A stretch of 64,000 nucleotides of DNA, taken from positions 1 to 64,000 of the forward strand of contig JANYHM010000064.1 in the NCBI GenBank assembly GCA_025359065.1, given 5' to 3'. The position numbers and the translations under genes are program-made. Below the pieces are notes generated by a model. The model ran no database searches. It was not told the DNA's origin and saw nothing but the letters and a program-made list of their open reading frames with translations. Source of the stretch: Synechococcales cyanobacterium GL140_1_metabinner_5_sub (GTDB lineage Bacteria; Cyanobacteriota; Cyanobacteriia; Cyanobacteriales; Chamaesiphonaceae). Shown one piece after another: positions 458 to 47,578 of this stretch (positions within the stretch are counted from its first letter, which is position 1; each line of letters opens with the position of its first letter).

Positions 458-1900
458 CTAAAGCGGACAGCTCTTGATCGATTTTAAAGTAGCCTGCAAT
501 AGCTTTGCTACCTGCTGCTGCTGCGGCTCCATCTCTTGCTGCATAGCCTGCCATCGATCGACATTTCCCTGTAAGCGCTTAGCAATAATATGCATCAAAC
601 GCTGCGTCTCCAAAGCACTTTTTTGAGTAGATTGTATTGTTTCTTGTTCCAACAGCCGAGTCAGACTACGCATCTCTCCCAACACCGAGGACAGCTCTTC
701 GGCAGATACCTGACTAGCAGCATTAGCTGTCAAAGCTGACCGAACATGGTTTGCTATCTCTGTCATCGTTTTTGTCGCTGTCTGCATCATAGATTGTTTC
801 TCTCGCATCCTGGCACTAGTTAACGACAGCCCCGCGTGCATCGCAATCTGCCGCACTCGCTCAATTTCTGCCGGTAGCCAATCACGATACTCAAAACAGT
901 GGTGAGCCACCAGCAAACCTAACAGTACGCCATTGTCTAACAAAATTGGAGCCACTAAGTTAGATTTGACCCCAATTTTATGGAGGGTTTCTACATAGCA
1001 ATCACTCATTCCCGCCGTATGAATATTACTGATCGCCCGCACCCGACCATTTTTATATTGCTCACCATAGCGATAATCAAAGCAAGGATCTACAATTACC
1101 CGTCCTAAAATAGGAGACAGCGCAGGCTGAGTAACTTCTACCGCAATTTTGCCCATCGAGTTAGCTTGTAAACTATACACCACTACTCGATCGCACTTTA
1201 GCAAGCGCTGTGTTTCACTCACCGCAATCTGTAAAGCTTCTAACCGGTTGCGACTGGCATAGAGCCTTTGGTTGATTTTGGGCATTAGCTCGCGCCATTC
1301 ATTTACCTGCTGTAATTCTTGGCGCAGATCGGCACATTCGATCGACTTCGCTAGATGTACCATGGCATAGCCTACTTGGGTGGCAATTTGAATGGCTAGA
1401 TCAATTTCGTTACTTTGCCATTCCCGAGGTGCTGTGCATTGATGCAGCACTAACAGACCATAAATTTCATTGTTTGTAGCAATAATTGGGACTACTAAAT
1501 TGGCCTGGACTCCGATCTTTTCTAGATTTTCGATGTAGCAAGGAGTCATCCCGGCTTGATAGATATTTGCAACTGCTCGCACCCGCCCCATCTGGTATTT
1601 ATCAATATATCTAGCCTCAAAACAGGGATCTACAATGACTGTGTTTAGGGTTTCGGGATAGCCTGCCGCCACCGACTCTGCCACAATCTTGCCGCGATCG
1701 GTGGCCTGCAGATTATAAATAACTGCTCGATCACAGTGGATTACTTCACGTACCAAGTTAACTGTGGTGTTCAGAATTTGGCTTTCTTGCTGGCAGGCAC
1801 GTAGCTTAGAAATAATATCTGTGAGCAGATTGGCTTGCTCAAAAGTATTTTGGACAATATCTGGGTAACTAATGATATCTCTAGATGTATCTCTGGACAT
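458..1900 (-). CDS. Tandem GAF protein with cyanobacteriochrome-like DPCF motifs
   Basis: A 480-residue protein with two GAF domains (about residues 44-185 and 224-362) and a C-terminal helical, probably coiled-coil tail. Both GAFs carry DPCF (91-94 and 271-274), the second-cysteine motif of DXCF cyanobacteriochromes, then GRVRA(V/I) and a cysteine at the canonical bilin position (Cys121, Cys301). The residue after that cysteine is Tyr rather than the usual His. The N(L)V(V/A)PI segment typical of PixJ-like GAFs follows. There is no transmembrane segment and no kinase, GGDEF or MCP output domain, so it would have to act through a partner or its tail. Bilin binding is inferred from motifs only. 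Confidence 0.75.
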   Translation of the reverse strand: MSRDTSRDIISYPDIVQNTFEQANLLTDIISKLRACQQESQILNTTVNLVREVIHCDRAVIYNLQATDRGKIVAESVAAGYPETLNTVIVDPCFEARYIDKYQMGRVRAVANIYQAGMTPCYIENLEKIGVQANLVVPIIATNNEIYGLLVLHQCTAPREWQSNEIDLAIQIATQVGYAMVHLAKSIECADLRQELQQVNEWRELMPKINQRLYASRNRLEALQIAVSETQRLLKCDRVVVYSLQANSMGKIAVEVTQPALSPILGRVIVDPCFDYRYGEQYKNGRVRAISNIHTAGMSDCYVETLHKIGVKSNLVAPILLDNGVLLGLLVAHHCFEYRDWLPAEIERVRQIAMHAGLSLTSARMREKQSMMQTATKTMTEIANHVRSALTANAASQVSAEELSSVLGEMRSLTRLLEQETIQSTQKSALETQRLMHIIAKRLQGNVDRWQAMQQEMEPQQQQVAKLLQATLKSIKSCPL

Positions 1901-2116: not shown

Positions 2117-2920
2117 TTGTTATTCAGGGGTATTCTGATTTTCAATATACTGATGATTTTGCATCGTCCGATTCCGGATGGATTTAAAATTAAGACTGCG
2201 GCTATTACGAAAAAGGCTGAGGGATATTACATCACGTTATCCTTGCAAGATGTATCTATACCAAAAATGACACACAATCTACCCACAATGGATAATACCA
2301 TGGGTGTAGATTTAGGACTTAAGTCATTTTTAGTAACAGATGATGGTGAAGAGGTTGCTATCCCTCAACATTATCGAAAAGCTCAAAAGCTTCTACAGCA
2401 GAAACAGCGGGACTTATCCAGAAAGAAGAAAGGCTCGAATCGTCGCAGAAAAGCGGTGAAGCGAGTTGCAAAGGCTCATAGCAAGGTTGCGAACCAGCGC
2501 AAAGATTTCCACTACAAGATAGCCAAAAAGCTGCTAGCAAAGGGGAAAAATATCGGGCATGAAAGCCTGAATATTAAGGGCATTGCCAAAACTAGAATGG
2601 CAAAGTCTACTTATGATGCTGGATGGGGGCAATTCCTGCTAATTCTCGCAGTCAAAGCTGAAAATGCTGGACTAACGACAATTCCAGTGAATCCAAACGG
2701 CACAACTCAAGATTGCTCTAATTGTGGGCAAAAGGTTCCGAAGACTCTTCAAGATAGGTGGCATTCTTGCCCTTACTGTAACTGTTCTCTCGACCGTGAT
2801 CATAATGCGGCCATCAACATCAAACACAGGGCGGTGGGTCATCTCGTCCTTAAAGCTCAGGTAATGCCCGATGCAATAGCAGGGTTCACTGAGAAGCCCG
2901 CGCTCTATGCGTTAGCATGA
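2117..2920 (+). pseudogene. tnpB: IS200/IS605-family TnpB, N-terminally truncated
   Basis: The 267-residue open frame is the C-terminal two thirds of TnpB, the RNA-guided RuvC-like nuclease of IS200/IS605 transposons (usually about 400 residues). The RuvC residues are present: Asp65 in GVDLG, Glu149 in GHESLNIKG and the DRDHNAA motif near 226-232. A zinc knuckle uses Cys200, Cys203, Cys218 and Cys221. The N-terminal region is missing. Just upstream another frame reads GYSDFQYTD, normally TnpB sequence ahead of the RPIPDGF motif, so a frameshift or deletion separates them. No tnpA is nearby. It is probably non-functional, though the nuclease core is intact. Confidence 0.85.
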
Positions 2921-2990: not shown

Positions 2991-4301
2991 TTAGGCCAAA
3001 TGAACCTGAAAATAACGTCGGTACAGCGTGCAGCTTGGCTCTACTAAGTTGCCAACTAGCTTAATCAGACCCATACCATCTAGGCGATAGAGCTGTGACC
3101 AGGCCAAGGCTACAGGTTTCTCACTGGTCACAACAGCGCGCAAAGCTTCCACCAAATCGGGGTGTGCTTGGAGGTTGGCCAAATAATGACGGAGATGATT
3201 ACCATAAATGCCGTTGTAGGTATGAGCAGTCTCTAACAGCTCTGGCAATCCTAGTTGCTGCTGTCCCAGATTGTACAGCGCTATCTGAGTAAGATAGGGA
3301 TGACCGCCAACTAATTCTAGAATTTGATCGATCTCGGGGTTTTCCCAGCCGTGGAGTTCAGCTAGATACAAAGCTTGGGTGCGATCGAATCCCGGCAACT
3401 GCACCGGCAAACCCACGTTAAAAGGCGACTGGTTTAGATCTAAGGAAATATATACCTCGGTGGTATGGGCGACCACCAGACGCAGCCTTTGCCAACTTTC
3501 GGTAAAATTGGCTTCTTCGTGCCACTCCCGCAGCAATGACAAAAAATCTTCGGCCACATCAGGGTATGCAAAGATTGCATCAATATCGTCGATCGCCAAC
3601 AGCAACCCCCCACAGTCTGTCGCCAAGCTCTCTAAAATTCCATCTTGCAAAAAGCCCGTGCAGCTTACCTTGCTGCCGATCGCTTCATCCCAATAATCAT
3701 CTAGTGCCAACTCTAAACCAAGCTGCTTGGTAATATTGGCACAGAGCCAGCGCAGCAGCATATCAATATCCTGAAAAATCTTTCGATCGGCGCGGCGCAG
3801 ATTAATTCTGACGGTCTGATATTGATGAGTCTGCATTTTATCTAGCAGCCAGTTCACCAAAGAAGTCTTACCAGTCATCTGAGAAGACTTGATCCGCACT
3901 AAGGCACCAGGGTTGAGCAATTCTCGCTCACAATCACCTTCGATCGCTGGACGCAGCACATACAAAGGCGAATCAGCAGCCACAGCTCCAGTGGGAAATT
4001 TACCATGGGTAGCTACGGGAGTTTTCTGGCGCTGCAAAGCTTGCTTAAAATTTTGCTTGCCAACTTTTTCTTGCAAGGCCACCGATAGTTTTTGCCACAG
4101 GGCACTGCCCACATCTTTATGAATGTAATCAGCCGAAAGATTCATTTCTAGGGCGATCGACTCATAGGTTCGTCCCTGCCAAGACCCGTGCAGCACCGCC
4201 ACCTCTCGATCAGTGAGGTGCTTGCCGCTGCTTTGCCACACCACTCGATCGGCGATGGCTTTTACCTGTTCCCAACTCAATTCCGCATCCATTGGTGGCA
4301 T
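2991..4301 (-). CDS. AAA-like ATPase with N-terminal HTH (AAA_35 type)
   Basis: A 436-residue protein. Residues about 5-100 look like the LuxR-type HTH domain found on cyanobacterial vWA-MoxR-associated proteins (LTDREVAVL, YESIALEMNLSADYIHKDVG). The rest is an AAA-like domain with a degenerate P-loop (SSQMTGKTSL) and a Walker B at GLLLAIDDIDAIF. It ends soon after the winged-helix-like LYRLDGMGLIKLVGNLVEP segment. Cyanobacterial relatives often carry WD40, TIR or caspase effectors, and none is present here. It is probably a regulatory or signal-transduction ATPase with an unknown partner. Confidence 0.75.
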   Translation of the reverse strand: MPPMDAELSWEQVKAIADRVVWQSSGKHLTDREVAVLHGSWQGRTYESIALEMNLSADYIHKDVGSALWQKLSVALQEKVGKQNFKQALQRQKTPVATHGKFPTGAVAADSPLYVLRPAIEGDCERELLNPGALVRIKSSQMTGKTSLVNWLLDKMQTHQYQTVRINLRRADRKIFQDIDMLLRWLCANITKQLGLELALDDYWDEAIGSKVSCTGFLQDGILESLATDCGGLLLAIDDIDAIFAYPDVAEDFLSLLREWHEEANFTESWQRLRLVVAHTTEVYISLDLNQSPFNVGLPVQLPGFDRTQALYLAELHGWENPEIDQILELVGGHPYLTQIALYNLGQQQLGLPELLETAHTYNGIYGNHLRHYLANLQAHPDLVEALRAVVTSEKPVALAWSQLYRLDGMGLIKLVGNLVEPSCTLYRRYFQVHLA

Positions 4302-5884: not shown

Positions 5885-5968
5885 TCATGATAGCTTAAAC
5901 TAATGAGAGGCAGGTTCACCAATGGAATCCGCCTAAGAAGAATTTCTATATTAATAGGAAGTAAACAA

Positions 5969-6613
5969 GTGAATGATTTTATCTTGGGTAGGCGGCAACT
6001 CCTGTATTTAGGACTAGGTATGGTCGGAACTGGATTAACAACCGCATGTGGAGTTGCCTCTAATAAAGATCAAGGAGGGGCAACGAAAGCCGATCAAGCC
6101 TCTAGTGCGAATGCCATATCTCAAAAAGGTTCTACCAATAAGGGTGAATTTAAGTCGCCCTTGGTACAAACGAAAAAATCTGCTGGCGCAGAATTACAAG
6201 AATTTCAAGGGATCCAAGAATGGTTGAATTCTACCCCACTTACCAAAGCAGATCTTCAGGGTAGTGTAGTTCTGCTCCAATTTTGGACATTGGGCTGCAT
6301 TAACTGTCAGCGCACCTTACCCTACGTCACCAGTTGGCATCAACAATTTGTAGCGCAGGGACTAAAAGTAATTGGCGTACATACCCCAGAGTTTGCTTTT
6401 GAGCGCAAAGTGAGCAATATCCAAACCGCGATGAAGCGTCATGGCATCAATTATCCGGTGGCTGTAGACAATGACTTTAAAACTTGGCAAGCTTATAAAA
6501 ATGAATATTGGCCACATTTATTTTTAGCCGATCGTCAAGGTGTGATTCAATACGATCATATTGGTGAGGGTGCTTATTCGGAGACTGCCCAAATGATTCA
6601 GAAACTGCTTTAA
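5969..6613 (+). CDS. Exported thioredoxin-like (redoxin) protein with CINC active site
   Basis: A thioredoxin-fold protein of about 214 residues. The GTG at 5969 follows AGGAA by eight bases and begins VNDFILGRRQLLYLG, a twin-arginine-like signal ending at a cysteine in TTACG, so it is probably an exported lipoprotein. The redoxin domain has WTLGCINCQRTLPY as its CxxC and resembles the periplasmic redoxin domains of DipZ-like proteins. It heads a three-gene operon with a cytochrome b and a molybdopterin enzyme, suggesting thiol or sulfoxide redox chemistry outside the membrane. Confidence 0.8.
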   Translation: MNDFILGRRQLLYLGLGMVGTGLTTACGVASNKDQGGATKADQASSANAISQKGSTNKGEFKSPLVQTKKSAGAELQEFQGIQEWLNSTPLTKADLQGSVVLLQFWTLGCINCQRTLPYVTSWHQQFVAQGLKVIGVHTPEFAFERKVSNIQTAMKRHGINYPVAVDNDFKTWQAYKNEYWPHLFLADRQGVIQYDHIGEGAYSETAQMIQKLL

Positions 6614-6651
6614 TCATGACTAAGTTTCCAAATATATTCATTTAAAATGCT

Positions 6652-7245
6652 ATGGCTACACCAAAAAAATCTCCACCAATTAACCATCAAAAGTTAATAG
6701 TAAAATTGTTCCACGGTACTATTATTGTTAGCCTGATCTTAATGATCGGCAGCGGCTTACAAATTTACAATGCCACACCAGTATTTGGTGGCAAAGACGG
6801 CTGGCATTTTCCGAAATTTTTAACTCTCGGTCATTGGTTAGCTGGTGGTCGTGATTGGCATTTTGCCATGATGTGGTTGTATTCATTTAATTTGTTGGTC
6901 TACGGTATCTACATTCTTTTAACTAAGCGTTGGAAAAAGCGATTTGTTTCTGGTAGCGATGTGCAGGTACTAAAAACTGGTCAAAACCCCAAACGTAAAG
7001 CCTATGCTTGGCATCGCCTGATTTATACGGGCATTATTCCAATTTTGATCTTGTCGATCGCAAGTGGGTTGGCCATGTATAAGCCTGTGCAACTTGCTTG
7101 GTTAGCTGGCCTATTTGGTAATTGGCAAACCCTGCGCACTATTCACTTCATTACAGTGCCGATTTCACTGCTATTTATGACTGCTCATGTGTTGATGAAC
7201 TTAAAAGTTGGTGGGATAAAAATTGTAAGATCGATGTTTGTATAA
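6652..7245 (+). CDS. Cytochrome b561-like membrane subunit (cytochrome b/b6 domain)
   Basis: A 197-residue integral membrane protein with four hydrophobic segments carrying histidines suited to heme ligation (KLFHGTI, LGHWL, YAWHRL, IHFIT and TAHVLM). This matches the cytochrome b type that anchors molybdoenzymes such as thiosulfate or formate reductase. It would pass quinol electrons to the adjacent exported oxidoreductase, as MsrQ does for MsrP, although it does not look like MsrQ itself. It lies 38 bases after the redoxin gene and 25 before the molybdoenzyme gene. Confidence 0.78.
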   Translation: MATPKKSPPINHQKLIVKLFHGTIIVSLILMIGSGLQIYNATPVFGGKDGWHFPKFLTLGHWLAGGRDWHFAMMWLYSFNLLVYGIYILLTKRWKKRFVSGSDVQVLKTGQNPKRKAYAWHRLIYTGIIPILILSIASGLAMYKPVQLAWLAGLFGNWQTLRTIHFITVPISLLFMTAHVLMNLKVGGIKIVRSMFV

Positions 7246-7270
7246 ATAATTTTGAATCTTAGAGGTTGCT

Positions 7271-7978
7271 ATGAATCCTAACTTGATGAGTCGGCGACAG
7301 TTGCTACAGTTATCTGGGCTGTCGGGGATTGGTTTATTGCTCAATGGCTGTCGTTCTGCCGATTTCGCCGAGGGAGTTGGAAACGCGATCGATCCGCTCA
7401 ATCAACGAGTAGAAGAGATGTTGCTCAGACCCCAAGCCCTGGCAATAGAATATCCAATTAGTTCGATCGAACCTCAAGCACTGATCGTTAATCCTAAAAA
7501 AACTTCTCCTATAATTAATCCTGATACCTTTAAATTAATTATTGATGGGGTGGTGAATCAACCCATGCAGTTGAGCATGAGTGACTTGCAAAAAATACCT
7601 TTGCAATCGATGGTAATTCGGCATGTTTGTGTAGAAGGATGGGCAGCGATCGTGCAGTGGGGCGGGGTGCGACTGCGAGATTTAATTGCTTTGGCACAGC
7701 CTCAAGTTTCAGCCCGCTATGTGTATTTCACCTCTGGGGACGGCTATTATGAAAGTTGGGATATGCCTTCGGCACTACATCCTCAAACTTTGTTGGCCTA
7801 TCAAATGAATGGTCAGCCATTACCGGTAGATAATGGCGCACCGCTGAGGTTAGCGGCTCCCATTAAGCTGGGTTATAAACAAAGCAAATGGGTAACTAGG
7901 GTGACTATCATGAATCAGTTGCCCAGCAAAAAAGGCTATTGGGAAGATCAAGGCTATGAGTGGTTTGCAGGGCTATAG
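7271..7978 (+). CDS. Tat-exported molybdopterin oxidoreductase (sulfite oxidase / MsrP family)
   Basis: A 235-residue protein with a Tat signal (SRRQLLQLSG, then a hydrophobic stretch ending LLNGC) and a sulfite-oxidase-fold molybdopterin domain. HVCVEGW supplies the conserved molybdenum-ligand cysteine. Family motifs such as GVRLRDLI and the GYKQSKWV region follow. Relatives are MsrP/YedY-like, which reduce protein methionine sulfoxide. GAGG upstream of the ATG gives a good start. Together with the redoxin and cytochrome b it forms an extracytoplasmic redox operon whose substrate is not determined. Confidence 0.82.
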   Translation: MNPNLMSRRQLLQLSGLSGIGLLLNGCRSADFAEGVGNAIDPLNQRVEEMLLRPQALAIEYPISSIEPQALIVNPKKTSPIINPDTFKLIIDGVVNQPMQLSMSDLQKIPLQSMVIRHVCVEGWAAIVQWGGVRLRDLIALAQPQVSARYVYFTSGDGYYESWDMPSALHPQTLLAYQMNGQPLPVDNGAPLRLAAPIKLGYKQSKWVTRVTIMNQLPSKKGYWEDQGYEWFAGL

Positions 7979-43441: not shown

Positions 43442-44215
43442 GTGTTGAAAAAAATTCTAGTTGTTAGCCTGCTATTGACCACCGCTGTCATGGTCAGCAC
43501 TGCTGCCCACGCTGAAAATGCCAATCATTTGAGCCAGTTGTTATCGACCAAAGAATGTAGCAAGTGCAACTTGGTCAATGCTGGATTGGTGCTTGGTGAA
43601 CTGAGCGGTGCAGATCTCAGCCAAGCTAACTTGGTGGGTGCTAACTTGAGTCAGGCTAGATTAATTGGTGCTAACTTAAAGGGCGCAAATCTCACCGGTG
43701 CTTCTTTGAATGGTGCCGACTTGACTGGTGCTGACCTAACAGGGGCAGTTTTGAACTCCACCGACTTGCGCGATGCTTTCTTGGGTGGGGCAAATTTGAC
43801 TGGTGTTAGTCTGCAAAATTCTTATATTCAAGGTGCTGTTGGTTTGGCTGGTACTGCTGGTAGTGCTGATGATTTTGCCAAGTGGGGCTACGCTGAGTGG
43901 CAAAAAAACAACTACAAAGGCTCGATCGAACACTTCAGTCAGGCAATTCGTCTCAATCCTCAAATGGGCAATGCCTACTATGGCAGAGCTATGGCACGCT
44001 ATCGCTTACAAGATGATGCTGGTGCTACTGTTGATGCTACCAAAGCTGAGCAAATCTTTAAGCAAAAAGGCGATATTGCTTCTGCCACTAATGCCCAAAA
44101 TTTTGTGAAGTCGATCGAAATTGCTCGTCAACCAACTAAGCCTAGTCAAGGCGGCGGTGGTAGCTTTGTAGACGTAATTACTGGCGTAGCTTCTACCCTG
44201 CTCAAATTCTTCTAA
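43442..44215 (+). CDS. Exported pentapeptide-repeat and TPR protein
   Basis: A 257-residue protein. GTG 43442 with GAGGT upstream opens a signal peptide (LKKILVVSLLLTTAVMVSTAAHA). About eighteen pentapeptide repeats of A(D/N)LxG type follow (about 40-130), making a right-handed beta-helix, then a TPR pair (GYAEWQKNNYKGSIEHFSQAIRLNP). Probably a lumenal or periplasmic scaffold of unknown target. Confidence 0.75.
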   Translation: MLKKILVVSLLLTTAVMVSTAAHAENANHLSQLLSTKECSKCNLVNAGLVLGELSGADLSQANLVGANLSQARLIGANLKGANLTGASLNGADLTGADLTGAVLNSTDLRDAFLGGANLTGVSLQNSYIQGAVGLAGTAGSADDFAKWGYAEWQKNNYKGSIEHFSQAIRLNPQMGNAYYGRAMARYRLQDDAGATVDATKAEQIFKQKGDIASATNAQNFVKSIEIARQPTKPSQGGGGSFVDVITGVASTLLKFF

Positions 44216-44333
44216 ATAGATTCCTCGTTCTGGGCGGTTTGTGGAGCCGTTAGGCGATCCCTAAAAAATTGCTCAAGATCGAGTCCAGTGTTAATCTGAG
44301 TGCAAAGCATTGACGCGGCAAAAACGAGGCAAC

Positions 44334-46061
44334 TTGGCACTGGACTTCCGTAATATCAATACTCTCTGGGCTTCGGCTTTAGTTGGCACCCTCGAACATT
44401 TAGGGGTGTCTCTGGCCGTAGTCTGTCCGGGGTCTCGATCGACCCCCTTAGCTGTGGCTTTTGCCCAGTCTACAAAAATTGCTGCGATTCCAGTTCTTGA
44501 TGAGCGATCGGCGGCTTTTTTTGCTTTGGGTCATGGTAAACGAACTGGTCAACCTGCTGTGGTGCTTTGTACTTCGGGCACTGCGGCAGCCAATTTTTAT
44601 CCGGCGGTGATCGAAGCCCGCGAAAGTCGGGTGCCATTGCTGGTTTTGACTGCCGATCGACCGCCAGAACTAAGAGATTGCCATTCGGGTCAGACTATTG
44701 ATCAGCTCAAAATTTATGGCAATTATCCCAACTGGCAAGCCGAGATGGCAGTGCCTGCTGTAGAGCTGTTGACTTATCTTCAGCAGACAATCATTTACGC
44801 TTGGGAGCGTGCTTTGGTTCCCAATGGTGGAGCTGTCCATTTAAATCTGCCTTTTCGGGATCCGCTGTCCCCAGTAGCGCAGCCAAAGATCTTGGCGCTA
44901 GCGGAGCAGATTTCTCTGAAGTTTCCAGATGTACCAGCGATCAGTAGTAAATCAATTCTCGATTGGAAAATCCCAGCAGCTTGGTCTGAACAACGGGGCT
45001 TACTTGTAGCGGGGATCGCTCAACCTGCTGACCCAGCGGCTTATGCTCAAGCGGTTAATGATATTGCGCTGGCATTAGGGTGGCCGATTTTAGCAGAAGG
45101 TCTATCGCCTTTGCGCCAATATTTTAGTGAGCAATTAGTCACCACTTATGATCTGATTTTGCGGCAGCCAGAATTGGCATTAAAGCTACGACCAACGGTG
45201 ATACTGCAACTGGGGGATCTGCCTACCAGTAAGGAGCTACGCCAATGGTTAGCTATGGTGCGGCCTCAAACTTGGATTCTAGAATCCTCTTTGCAAAATG
45301 TTAACGCTCTACATTTAGATGCTACTTATCTGCGATCGACTGTAGTAGATTTAGCTGAGAAACTACAAACTGTCCTGCCCGGAAATCTAATCACTACAAA
45401 TAGTTACACTGAGCAGTGGCTGAAGCTCGATCAACAGGTACGGGTGGCGATCGATCTCACTATGCTAAAACTAGAAACTCTCTGTGAGTGCAAGATCCCT
45501 TGGCTGCTATCTCAAATTTTACCCCCAGAGACAGTAGTGTTTGTGTCTAACAGCATGCCGATCCGCGATGTGGAATTTTTTTGGCGACCCAATCAGCAGC
45601 GGTACCATATTTTGGGTAATCGGGGGGCTAATGGAATTGATGGCACGCTCTCTACGGCTCTGGGGGCTTTGCATCAGCACAACCAGCCAGGAATTTTAAT
45701 CACCGGAGATCTGTCTTTGCTCCATGATACAAATGGCCTGCTACTGCGTCGGCAGTTTCAGGGAAGTCTGACTATTTTGCTGATCAACAATAATGGTGGT
45801 GGCATTTTTGGCATGTTGCCAATTAAGCATTTCGACCCCCCTTTTACGGAATTTTTTACCACCCCCCAAAATGTAGATTTTGATACGCTCTGTGGTGCTT
45901 ATCAAATTCCACACCAAAAAATTGAGAGCTGGTCGATGCTTCAAACAAAAATCACTCAGCTTGGTATGCCGGGGATCACTTGTTGGGAGGTCAGCACCAA
46001 TTCTGAACTCGATAATCAATGGCGCAAAGAGAATTTGACACAATTTGTTACCAATATTTAA
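44334..46061 (+). CDS. menD: MenD (SEPHCHC synthase) of phylloquinone synthesis
   Basis: A protein of about 575 residues using thiamine diphosphate to join 2-oxoglutarate to isochorismate. VVCPGSRSTPLAVAF, LTADRPPELRD and the ThDP motif GDLSLLHDTNGLLL with NNNGGGIFGMLPI identify it. A TTG at 44334 is the likeliest start, as the family opens just before DFRN; TTG 44310 is possible. In cyanobacteria this pathway makes photosystem I phylloquinone. Confidence 0.9.
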   Translation: MALDFRNINTLWASALVGTLEHLGVSLAVVCPGSRSTPLAVAFAQSTKIAAIPVLDERSAAFFALGHGKRTGQPAVVLCTSGTAAANFYPAVIEARESRVPLLVLTADRPPELRDCHSGQTIDQLKIYGNYPNWQAEMAVPAVELLTYLQQTIIYAWERALVPNGGAVHLNLPFRDPLSPVAQPKILALAEQISLKFPDVPAISSKSILDWKIPAAWSEQRGLLVAGIAQPADPAAYAQAVNDIALALGWPILAEGLSPLRQYFSEQLVTTYDLILRQPELALKLRPTVILQLGDLPTSKELRQWLAMVRPQTWILESSLQNVNALHLDATYLRSTVVDLAEKLQTVLPGNLITTNSYTEQWLKLDQQVRVAIDLTMLKLETLCECKIPWLLSQILPPETVVFVSNSMPIRDVEFFWRPNQQRYHILGNRGANGIDGTLSTALGALHQHNQPGILITGDLSLLHDTNGLLLRRQFQGSLTILLINNNGGGIFGMLPIKHFDPPFTEFFTTPQNVDFDTLCGAYQIPHQKIESWSMLQTKITQLGMPGITCWEVSTNSELDNQWRKENLTQFVTNI

Positions 46062-46597
46062 GATCGGCTAACCCCACTTCTACCCCACCCTCTAAAACAT
46101 AAGGTCTATGGGATTCTGGAATTGGGTGTAATTGGCCTGTAGGAAGTTAGTATTCAAGCTTTCTGTAATGGGACTAGGCGGTGCTTTTCACCAAAAAGCT
46201 TTTGGTGAGGCACCCTTTACTCCAATCTGTTACAAAAACTGCAACGCCTGACAGCCAAAGGTTTTTTTGTCGTAAACTGAATTCCCCACGCTTAATAATT
46301 AATTAAGTTTTGGAACAAAATTTTTCTGTTAATGTCATAAATAACCAATAGCTGAACAGTTGTTGGAATTTGCATCAGGTTAAAGTTAGTCATAGGCTTT
46401 TCGTCTGTGAACTAACCGGAAATTGGTTAATGACTCGGTTAATAAGTCTTAATCTTTAAATTACCTTTTGCAACTTTTGACCGCTCCTCACCCAGTTAAC
46501 TTAATATTCCCGTTAACTTATTTGACTGTACAGATTAACTTTTGGATTACCTCCAAAACATCAGACAAACTCGTTGGATCAGGAGCGTACTGGAACT
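46062..46597. other. Long leader region before the sigma factor gene
   Basis: This 536-base gap has no plausible gene. It holds a hairpin at 46180-46214 (GGTGC/GCACC outside CACCAAAA/TTTTGGTG) without a T run. Near the gene there are two GTTAACTTA repeats (46495-46503 and 46512-46520) and a TTGACC hexamer. It probably contains promoters for the sigma factor, not resolved here. Confidence 0.45.
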
Positions 46598-47578
46598 ATG
46601 CCTAACCTTAAAACCATGACTGATAGACAGCCTAAGTACACCGGCGATAGCATCCGCAGCTATCTTCACGAAATCGGGCGCGTTCCCCTGCTGAGCCACG
46701 AAGAAGAAATTACTTTGGGCAAACAGGTGCAGCAAATGGTGGTGCTGCAGGAACTCCAGCTCAAACTACAAGAAGATTCTGGCCAGCCCGTGCCGGACAG
46801 TGATTTGGCGTTGGCTGCTCAAATTGATGAGCATGCGCTGAAACGGGTTTTCTTGCTTGGTCAACGCGCTAAAAAACGCATGATTGAAGCTAATTTGCGT
46901 TTGGTTGTAGCGATCGCCAAGAAATACCAGAAGCGTAATTTGGAATTTTTAGACCTTATTCAAGAAGGCTCTCTCGGTCTAGAGCGTGGCGTAGAAAAGT
47001 TTGACCCCACTCGGGGCTATAAATTTTCGACCTATGCCTACTGGTGGATTCGGCAGGCCATCACTCGGGCGATCGCTCAACAGGCGCGATCAATTCGGTT
47101 GCCAATTCACATCACCGAGAAGCTGAACAAAATCAAGAAAACTCAGCGCGAACTTTCCCAGTCTTTGGGTCGTAGTCCCACTACTCAAGAAATTGCGGTA
47201 GTGCTGGAGTTGGATCCGGCACAAATTCGTGAATACCTGAGTATTTCACGACAGCCTGTGTCGTTAGATATCAAGGTGGGTGACAACCAAGATACTGAGC
47301 TTTCGGAGCTGCTAGAAGACGGTGGCCCTTCCCCCGAAAGCTATACGGTTCAAGACAGCTTGCGCCGCGATCTGATTGGTATTTTGAATGAACTGTCACC
47401 GCAACAGCGTCAAGTCCTGAGCTTGCGCTTTGGCTTAGATGGAGATTCAGAAATGTCGTTGGCTAAAGTTGGCCAAATCCTCAATCTCAGTCGCGAACGG
47501 GTACGCCAGCTAGAGCACCAAGCTCTGTCTCAGCTCCGTCGTCGTCACCGCGATTTCCAAGACTATGTGGCTAGCTAA
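46598..47578 (+). CDS. Group 2 RNA polymerase sigma factor (RpoD/SigA family)
   Basis: A 326-residue sigma70-type factor. Regions 1.2 (DSIRSYLHEIGRVPLL), 2 (LRLVVAIAKKYQKRN, KFSTYAYWWIRQAITRAI), 3 and 4 (QVLSLRFGLDG, LNLSRERVRQLEHQALSQLRR) are complete. Region 1.1 is absent, so it is a non-essential group 2 factor of the SigB-SigE class; I cannot pick which one. ATG 46598 is the probable start. A strong terminator follows. Confidence 0.88.
   Translation: MPNLKTMTDRQPKYTGDSIRSYLHEIGRVPLLSHEEEITLGKQVQQMVVLQELQLKLQEDSGQPVPDSDLALAAQIDEHALKRVFLLGQRAKKRMIEANLRLVVAIAKKYQKRNLEFLDLIQEGSLGLERGVEKFDPTRGYKFSTYAYWWIRQAITRAIAQQARSIRLPIHITEKLNKIKKTQRELSQSLGRSPTTQEIAVVLELDPAQIREYLSISRQPVSLDIKVGDNQDTELSELLEDGGPSPESYTVQDSLRRDLIGILNELSPQQRQVLSLRFGLDGDSEMSLAKVGQILNLSRERVRQLEHQALSQLRRRHRDFQDYVAS

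Follow-up and report, generated by a model that had tools for sequence, protein, structure and literature searches.

A family of cyanobacterial proteins with twin DXCF-type GAF domains and a conserved C-terminal tail

Twin-GAF gene and predicted fold

The window, which is the whole 64,000-nucleotide stretch of contig JANYHM010000064.1 that was analyzed, carries near one end an open 480-codon frame with an ATG start (458..1900, − strand, stop codon included), which was delimited from the open reading frame and its full-length relatives and encodes a twin-GAF protein of 480 amino acids. The contig begins 457 bases past the stop codon. Two GAF domains were recognized (Pfam PF01590, whole-protein E value of 5.9e-35, with GAF_3 overlapping), and beyond GAF no Pfam domain was found in the protein at an E value of ≤0.01. 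GAF1 covers residues 37 to 184 (1349..1792, − strand) and GAF2 covers residues 214 to 364 (809..1261, − strand), both being assigned from Pfam and TePixJ similarity, and residues 366 to 480 (461..805, − strand) form a C-terminal tail. The GAF structures of TePixJ are the best solved relatives of the protein, with a phmmer E value of 2e-34 when the whole protein is the query and of 3.2e-27 when only GAF2 is, which indicates homology rather than chance similarity; GAF1 and TePixJ share 37% identity over the GAF domain.

The full-length AlphaFold model, built with 20 family sequences, had a mean pLDDT of 80.0 and a pTM of 0.53, and a long helix connects GAF1 and GAF2 in it. The predicted GAF1 (model residues 35 to 184) was aligned by VIA-align with TePixJ (4glq) over 149 residues with a Z score of 25.0 and a root mean square deviation of 1.9 Å, and it has the cyanobacteriochrome GAF fold. 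A transmembrane segment was not apparent in the protein, the highest 19-residue mean Kyte-Doolittle value being 1.83, in a stretch that starts at residue 315 within a GAF strand. A preliminary description of this DNA had already recognized twin DPCF GAF domains with Cys-Tyr, related to PixJ and without a membrane domain, and all of this is borne out here. It had also denied the protein any output domain, and Pfam indeed finds none, but the conserved 115-residue tail had been overlooked.

In its DXCF-type GAF domains, both cysteines, and fold, the protein resembles TePixJ and PixJ1 (TaxD1), the blue/green phototaxis receptors. PixJ1 is described in the available text of PMC5812497 as having two transmembrane segments, two GAF domains, of which only the second binds a chromophore, and an MCP module. 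The window protein differs from PixJ1 as described there in lacking an apparent membrane part and any Pfam MCP match, so that it does not qualify as an MCP-type receptor, which is marked by an MCP signaling domain and transmembrane segments.

Distribution and phylogeny of the twin-GAF family

Among the 291 genomes searched in the order, 48 had matches to the window protein at an E value of ≤1e-60. Some of these matches are stand-alone proteins of about 450 to 540 amino acids, most of whose length was aligned, and the others are longer multi-GAF proteins. Genome contigs were searched with an alignment, a scan with the single protein having found no relative. In total, 30 stand-alone members from 28 genomes were gathered, with L130 and L140 being dropped from 32 “standalone” proteins for their tree placement among the multi-GAF proteins. 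A truncated PixJ of one genome was also considered and rejected, copies of about 450 to 540 amino acids being present in many genomes. Members with a titled record belong to Chamaesiphon, Pleurocapsa, Waterburya, Hyella, Hyellaceae, Myxosarcina, Xenococcus, and Xenococcaceae, with a same-genus copy in an unclassified “Synechococcales” bin, and a full-length copy is present in 7 of the 10 other searched genomes of the window's taxonomic family. One copy, on contig C81 of genome G226, has its tail match and its GAF match in different frames (97 and 301 amino acids) and is probably broken.

A midpoint-rooted tree of 138 GAF domains, for which 70 of the 234 domains from multi-GAF relatives were drawn at random, placed the 60 domains of the twin-GAF family in one group (support 99/86), with the multi-GAF proteins as the nearest GAF neighbors of this clade. 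All 30 GAF2 domains formed their own group (100/99), and the GAF1 domains lay beside it in two branches (99/92 and 100/94). The window protein belongs to the family by both features, its GAF domains falling in the GAF1 and GAF2 groups and its C terminus carrying the tail. The topology would fit a single origin of the two-GAF protein before the lineages split, or one transfer. GAF pieces of <60 bits or <110 residues were excluded from the domain set, and L065 and L078, which are the same gene, were counted once in the cysteine and Tyr counts and twice among the neighborhood and tail-search rows.

The family is under purifying selection. Seven gene pairs compared over three regions gave dN/dS values of 0.05 to 0.33 in 20 of 21 comparisons, the remaining one being saturated; several of the underlying dS values are above 1 and therefore rough. 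Over the seven pairs, dN/dS was 0.08 to 0.25 for GAF1 and 0.05 to 0.23 for GAF2. A literature search returned no paper on a stand-alone GAF protein of such a kind or on Chamaesiphon phototaxis, only an unrelated paper for the twin-GAF theme, only a review of chromatic acclimation for cyanobacteriochromes in Pleurocapsa, and three papers for degenerate MCPs and PixJ, and absence from print is not claimed for any of these themes.

Chromophore cysteines and pocket residues

The DPCF motifs of GAF1 (residues 91 to 94; 1619..1630, − strand) and GAF2 (residues 271 to 274; 1079..1090, − strand) aligned with D492 to F495 of TePixJ, which makes both domains DXCF type, and both of their cysteines (Cys93 in GAF1) fell on C494. 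The later cysteines, C121 and C301, fell on C522, the canonical chromophore Cys, and are followed by Tyr at the position of H523 in both GAF domains (Cys121-Tyr122, 1535..1540, − strand; Cys301-Tyr302, 995..1000, − strand). Across 13 TePixJ positions compared, eight (D492, C494, F495, Y503, R507, C522, L527, and N535) are kept by both window GAF domains, and five are changed (H498R, W499Y, D513N, H523Y, and Q526N in GAF1 or Q526T in GAF2).

Nine of these positions are named in print as pocket or chromophore linked: D492, C494, H498, W499, C522, H523, Q526, and N535 in the available text of PMC6955287 and L527 in that of PMC7504144. The other four, F495, Y503, R507, and D513, are conserved neighbors that we added, R507 being mentioned in the available part of PMC6955287 solely for a crystal contact. 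An absence of the remaining pocket residues, which would count against the preliminary description, was not found, but the outcome is mixed, with D492, C494, C522, L527, and N535 kept (5/9) and H498, W499, H523, and Q526 replaced (4/9). As described in the same part of PMC6955287, the TePixJ pocket includes H523 and Q526, and the B-ring propionate is bonded by H498 and W499. Judged from these residues, the predicted pocket of the window protein is not a copy of the TePixJ pocket.

Most of the replacements are usual among the relatives. In the 234 domains of multi-GAF proteins, Tyr499 was found in 231, Asn513 in 183, Tyr523 in 145, and Gln526 in 187, and His498 was not among the five commonest residues at its position; the replacements at 498, 499, and 523 are usual there, and the one at 526 is unusual. 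Position 526 is, on this alignment, the point where the twin-GAF family departs from its multi-GAF relatives. The 234 domains leave out 23 lower-scoring ones (60 to 150 bits), among which the DXCF Cys was found in 2 and the canonical Cys in 3.

The window genome encodes three ferredoxin-dependent bilin reductases (E values of 8.7e-81 to 3.1e-76). Isomerization of phycocyanobilin to phycoviolobilin is typical of DXCF cyanobacteriochromes and not universal, according to the available text of PMC11284453, and it is unreadable from the DXCF motif alone.

Conserved C-terminal tail

The tail was recognized in 29 of the 30 family members, the remaining one (L070) being cut by a contig end. A search of 388 genomes of the order with a tail profile of 27 rows from the twin-GAF family found 28 genomes at an E value of <1e-20, most of which had supplied rows to the profile; they are confined to two families, with 8 in the window's taxonomic family and 20 in the other. 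A 29th genome (G172; E value of 8.4e-4, a 73-amino-acid frame with a stop) looks like a chance match. The phylum-wide search gave 3 matches in 386, of which two were known members and the third (G514; E value of 9.6e-4, 46 columns) was marginal and also looks like chance. The window tail itself matched the profile, which includes its row, with an E value of 7.5e-28.

In gene pairs, the dN/dS of the tail was 0.05 to 0.33 in six of seven, the other being saturated. In several pairs, no region is less conserved than the tail, which shares 56% identity with the same-genus copy. Its family-wide presence and its dN/dS values indicate that the tail truly belongs to the protein and is under selection. 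Folded alone, it was predicted as an antiparallel two-helix hairpin with a pLDDT of 89. In the full-length model, its pLDDT was 56 to 73 per ten residues from residue 371, with more, broken helices, and the two models break the helices differently.

The tail is conserved and missed by standard databases. Pfam gave only weak, mixed matches under the cutoffs for the three tails searched, and Foldseek gave no match at an E value of ≤0.001. VIA-align returned tied rows of helical hairpins with a top Z score of 12.2, among which a HAMP-Tsr fusion (Z score of 11.2) was inseparable from unrelated hairpins. Against 61 distinct tails of multi-GAF relatives, no convincing match to the twin-GAF tail was found (best E value of 0.022), and hhalign of the tail family with these tails gave a probability of 18.4% (E value of 0.0013). 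No MCP similarity of the tail family emerged from hhalign with a three-sequence MCP profile (probability of 0.45%).

Multi-GAF relatives and their eroded MCP outputs

The multi-GAF DXCF proteins, found mainly in Pleurocapsales and Nostocales, are soluble like the window protein and show the same choice of Cys-Tyr or Cys-His. They differ in having two to eight GAF domains and an MCP-derived tail, 286 to 301 amino acids long in 36 of the 61 distinct tails, whereas members of the window's family have exactly two GAF domains and a tail of about 115 amino acids. Of 11 multi-GAF proteins searched with Pfam, one had a strong MCPsignal match (L049, 140.9 bits), four had a weak one, two of them above and two below the 34.6-bit cutoff, and six had none at an E value of ≤0.001. 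A profile of the three MCPs of the window genome matched 45 of the 61 tails at an E value of <1e-5, and hhalign of the tail set with this profile gave 99.8%.

The tip of the MCP hairpin is the contact for CheA and CheW. It was readable in 45 of the 61 tails (L065 to L154), in an alignment that is approximate for the weakest profile matches, and the conserved tip is lost in 44 of the 45. All 22 conserved tip residues were present only in L143, and the next best tail had 12. The three reference MCPs keep 20 to 22 of these residues but had built the profile, and L143, which lies outside it, is the fair positive control. The 61 tails are a sample of close relatives, not of all PixJ proteins; the intact MCP of genome G086 (L049) is outside them, its GAF domains scoring too low.

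Five Nostoc proteins (L135, L137, L149, L151, and L152) have four GAF domains and end 11 to 15 residues past the last one, and no MCP-like tail was seen by eye in the next 1,500 bases on the same strand. They are a parallel case of a GAF-only architecture. A cyanobacterial-type multi-GAF gene was also met in a record of Candidatus Gracilibacteria (L107), whose contig is probably mis-binned.

Proposed function

We consider it probable, if by a modest degree, that the protein is a soluble DXCF photoswitch with two GAF domains in tandem that signals to a partner through its hairpin. Derivation from PixJ-like receptors, with output through the family-specific hairpin, would be the most economical account. 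The homology to TePixJ, the fold, both cysteines, the conserved tail, the purifying selection, and the supported single clade are the basis of this reading. The chromophore, the colors, the signaling by the tail, and the partner we infer. Phycocyanobilin, possibly converted to phycoviolobilin, would be taken up on the canonical cysteines C121 and C301, and the DPCF cysteines C93 and C273 would form a reversible second link. Light may convert a blue-absorbing dark state to a longer-wavelength photoproduct, and the change could pass through the helices after each GAF domain (residues 163 to 214 and 343 to 392) into the C-terminal hairpin, which would bind or release the putative partner protein. 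The preliminary description had left a choice between a photosensor with a partner and a chromophore-free relative of PixJ, and the first of these appears to be the best reading of the window protein.

The twin-GAF protein is a variant of a known photoreceptor and not a new kind. Cyanobacteriochromes are usually read as sensors placed before a known output, such as a kinase, a cyclase, or an MCP. A selected, lineage-restricted family whose tail lies outside Pfam, close to proteins with eroded MCPs, points to signaling by direct protein contact, and as a compact two-switch module the protein is testable by standard expression.

A tentative extension, which we regard as unlikely, is that coupling to chemotaxis was lost stepwise and that the family stands at the end of this loss. 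A PixJ-like receptor would have become soluble, its MCP tip would have lost the conserved residues as GAF domains were added, and in the branch of the twin-GAF family its output would have been reduced to a short hairpin with a new, non-chemotaxis partner. Were the loss of coupling true, a blue-light route without a kinase, a cyclase, or Che proteins would operate in sessile, baeocyte- or exospore-forming cyanobacteria.

Gene neighborhoods and a possible link to Che proteins

The twin-GAF protein could instead serve a PixJ-type phototaxis complex as an accessory subunit, which pairs with a PixJ receptor or the CheA kinase and tunes it and has no pathway of its own. In G086, response-regulator-like, CheW, multi-GAF MCP, and CheA genes stand in a row, and the twin-GAF gene follows on the same strand, 209 bases further downstream; in G267, it adjoins two multi-GAF proteins, and in G262, a gene in the BLAST cluster of the G086 CheA lies about 2 kb away. 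However, among the matches listed, an MCP-signal match within 10 kb was found only in G086 of 27 genomes, and about one such neighbor is expected by chance by our estimate (4 to 20 matches per genome). In addition, the best other GAF domain of the window genome scored 145 bits against the family profile, compared with 229 and 216 bits for the window GAF domains, which are themselves in the profile. A link of the twin-GAF protein to the Che machinery is possible, although it is not plain from the neighborhoods outside G086, and we think a purely accessory role unlikely.

No consistent partner gene was found beside the twin-GAF gene in the neighborhoods compared. Ten copies have, immediately upstream and on the same strand, a gene for an alpha/beta hydrolase, all in genus g21 (L050, L051, L052, L053, L054, L056, L057, L059, L060, and L070). 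NCBIfam assigned the one tested, that of L051, to MenH (263 bits, cutoff of 208.55), which acts in phylloquinone synthesis. The clustered gene in G031, a genome of the window's genus, encodes another hydrolase, below the NCBIfam cutoff in all 25 matches listed. A pathway shared with the upstream hydrolase was rejected, the ten same-strand copies being confined to g21 and the G031 gene being different.

Tyr after the canonical Cys

The preliminary description had linked the Tyr after the canonical Cys to altered bilin use. In a red/green cyanobacteriochrome, a His-to-Tyr exchange increased biliverdin incorporation and fluorescence (PMC9378818, available text), which by analogy supports the importance of the site, but in another lineage than that of the DXCF domains. 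Among the relatives of the window protein, Cys-Tyr is the majority state, with 143 Tyr and 79 His in the 222 domains of multi-GAF proteins that keep the Cys, a sample that leans to query-like domains (the best 80 of 386 stretches in one search), with search patterns that exclude the Tyr site. In the twin-GAF family, the Cys-keeping GAF1 domains have 17 Tyr and 12 His (n = 29), and all 24 such GAF2 domains have Tyr. The idea that Cys-Tyr is a rarity was therefore rejected, and since Tyr is the majority state in the relatives, it is by itself no sign of a lost or altered bilin. Cys-Tyr is a common natural state of DXCF-type domains, and its comparison with the Cys-His type is worthwhile.

These counts also bear on a bilin-binding, non-photoconverting protein, fluorescent or for storage, which the Tyr might produce. 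According to the available text of PMC9378818, the red/green NpF2164g5 and miRFP670nano H87Y have high fluorescence with Cys-Tyr, and biliverdin uptake by SPI1085g3 C448S rises on the His-to-Tyr exchange. NpF2164g5 and miRFP670nano share the Tyr with the window GAF domains, but these two and SPI1085g3 are of another lineage, and red/green (XRG) domains are defined, in the available part of PMC11284453, by a WXDXXL motif and no DXCF second Cys, which is present in both window GAF domains. Moreover, Tyr is common across many dual-Cys domains of the multi-GAF relatives, and the DXCF Cys is retained in 59 of the 60 family GAF domains, a retention more readily understood if this Cys acts in a switch. 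A bilin protein that does not photoconvert is, in our judgment, quite improbable.

GAF2 domains without the canonical Cys

In the twin-GAF family, 29 of 30 GAF1 and 24 of 30 GAF2 domains have both cysteines, the canonical Cys being absent from six GAF2 domains and both cysteines from one GAF1. All six members of Chamaesiphon genus g2 (L062, L063, L066, L071, L072, and L074) have a GAF2 without the canonical Cys and Arg507, still with DPCF or DPCL, and a GAF1 with both cysteines. This cysteine-less GAF2 is under purifying selection (dN/dS of 0.08 in the one g2 pair tested), which indicates that a GAF domain can be useful without the usual bilin link. By this pattern, the main sensor of g2 members would be GAF1, with GAF2 able to serve a structural or regulatory role, and a chromophore-free reading may fit this GAF2. 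For the window protein, a chromophore-free GAF scaffold that retains its motif by descent is very unlikely, five of the nine printed positions (the two cysteines, D492, L527, and N535) being kept, even though the other four are replaced, and both cysteines being present in nearly all GAF1 domains of the family.

Other genes of the window and its genome

Between the twin-GAF gene and an AAA_35 gene (2991..4301, − strand) lies a TnpB-like (OrfB_IS605) gene of 267 amino acids (2117..2920, + strand). In G031 (L048), the twin-GAF gene and a relative of the AAA_35 gene are neighbors with no open reading frame of 90 amino acids between them, and the TnpB-like gene therefore looks like the insertion of a mobile element. 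The AAA_35 gene has a weak match, below the cutoff, to a LuxR-type helix-turn-helix near its N-terminal end. A row of thioredoxin-like, cytochrome b561-like, and molybdopterin oxidoreductase genes (5903..7978, + strand) is possibly a redox system. Elsewhere in the window genome, contig C103 carries at about 44141 to 46681 a 1,656-amino-acid frame with three GAF domains, one of them with DTCF and Cys-His, which is a probable further cyanobacteriochrome.
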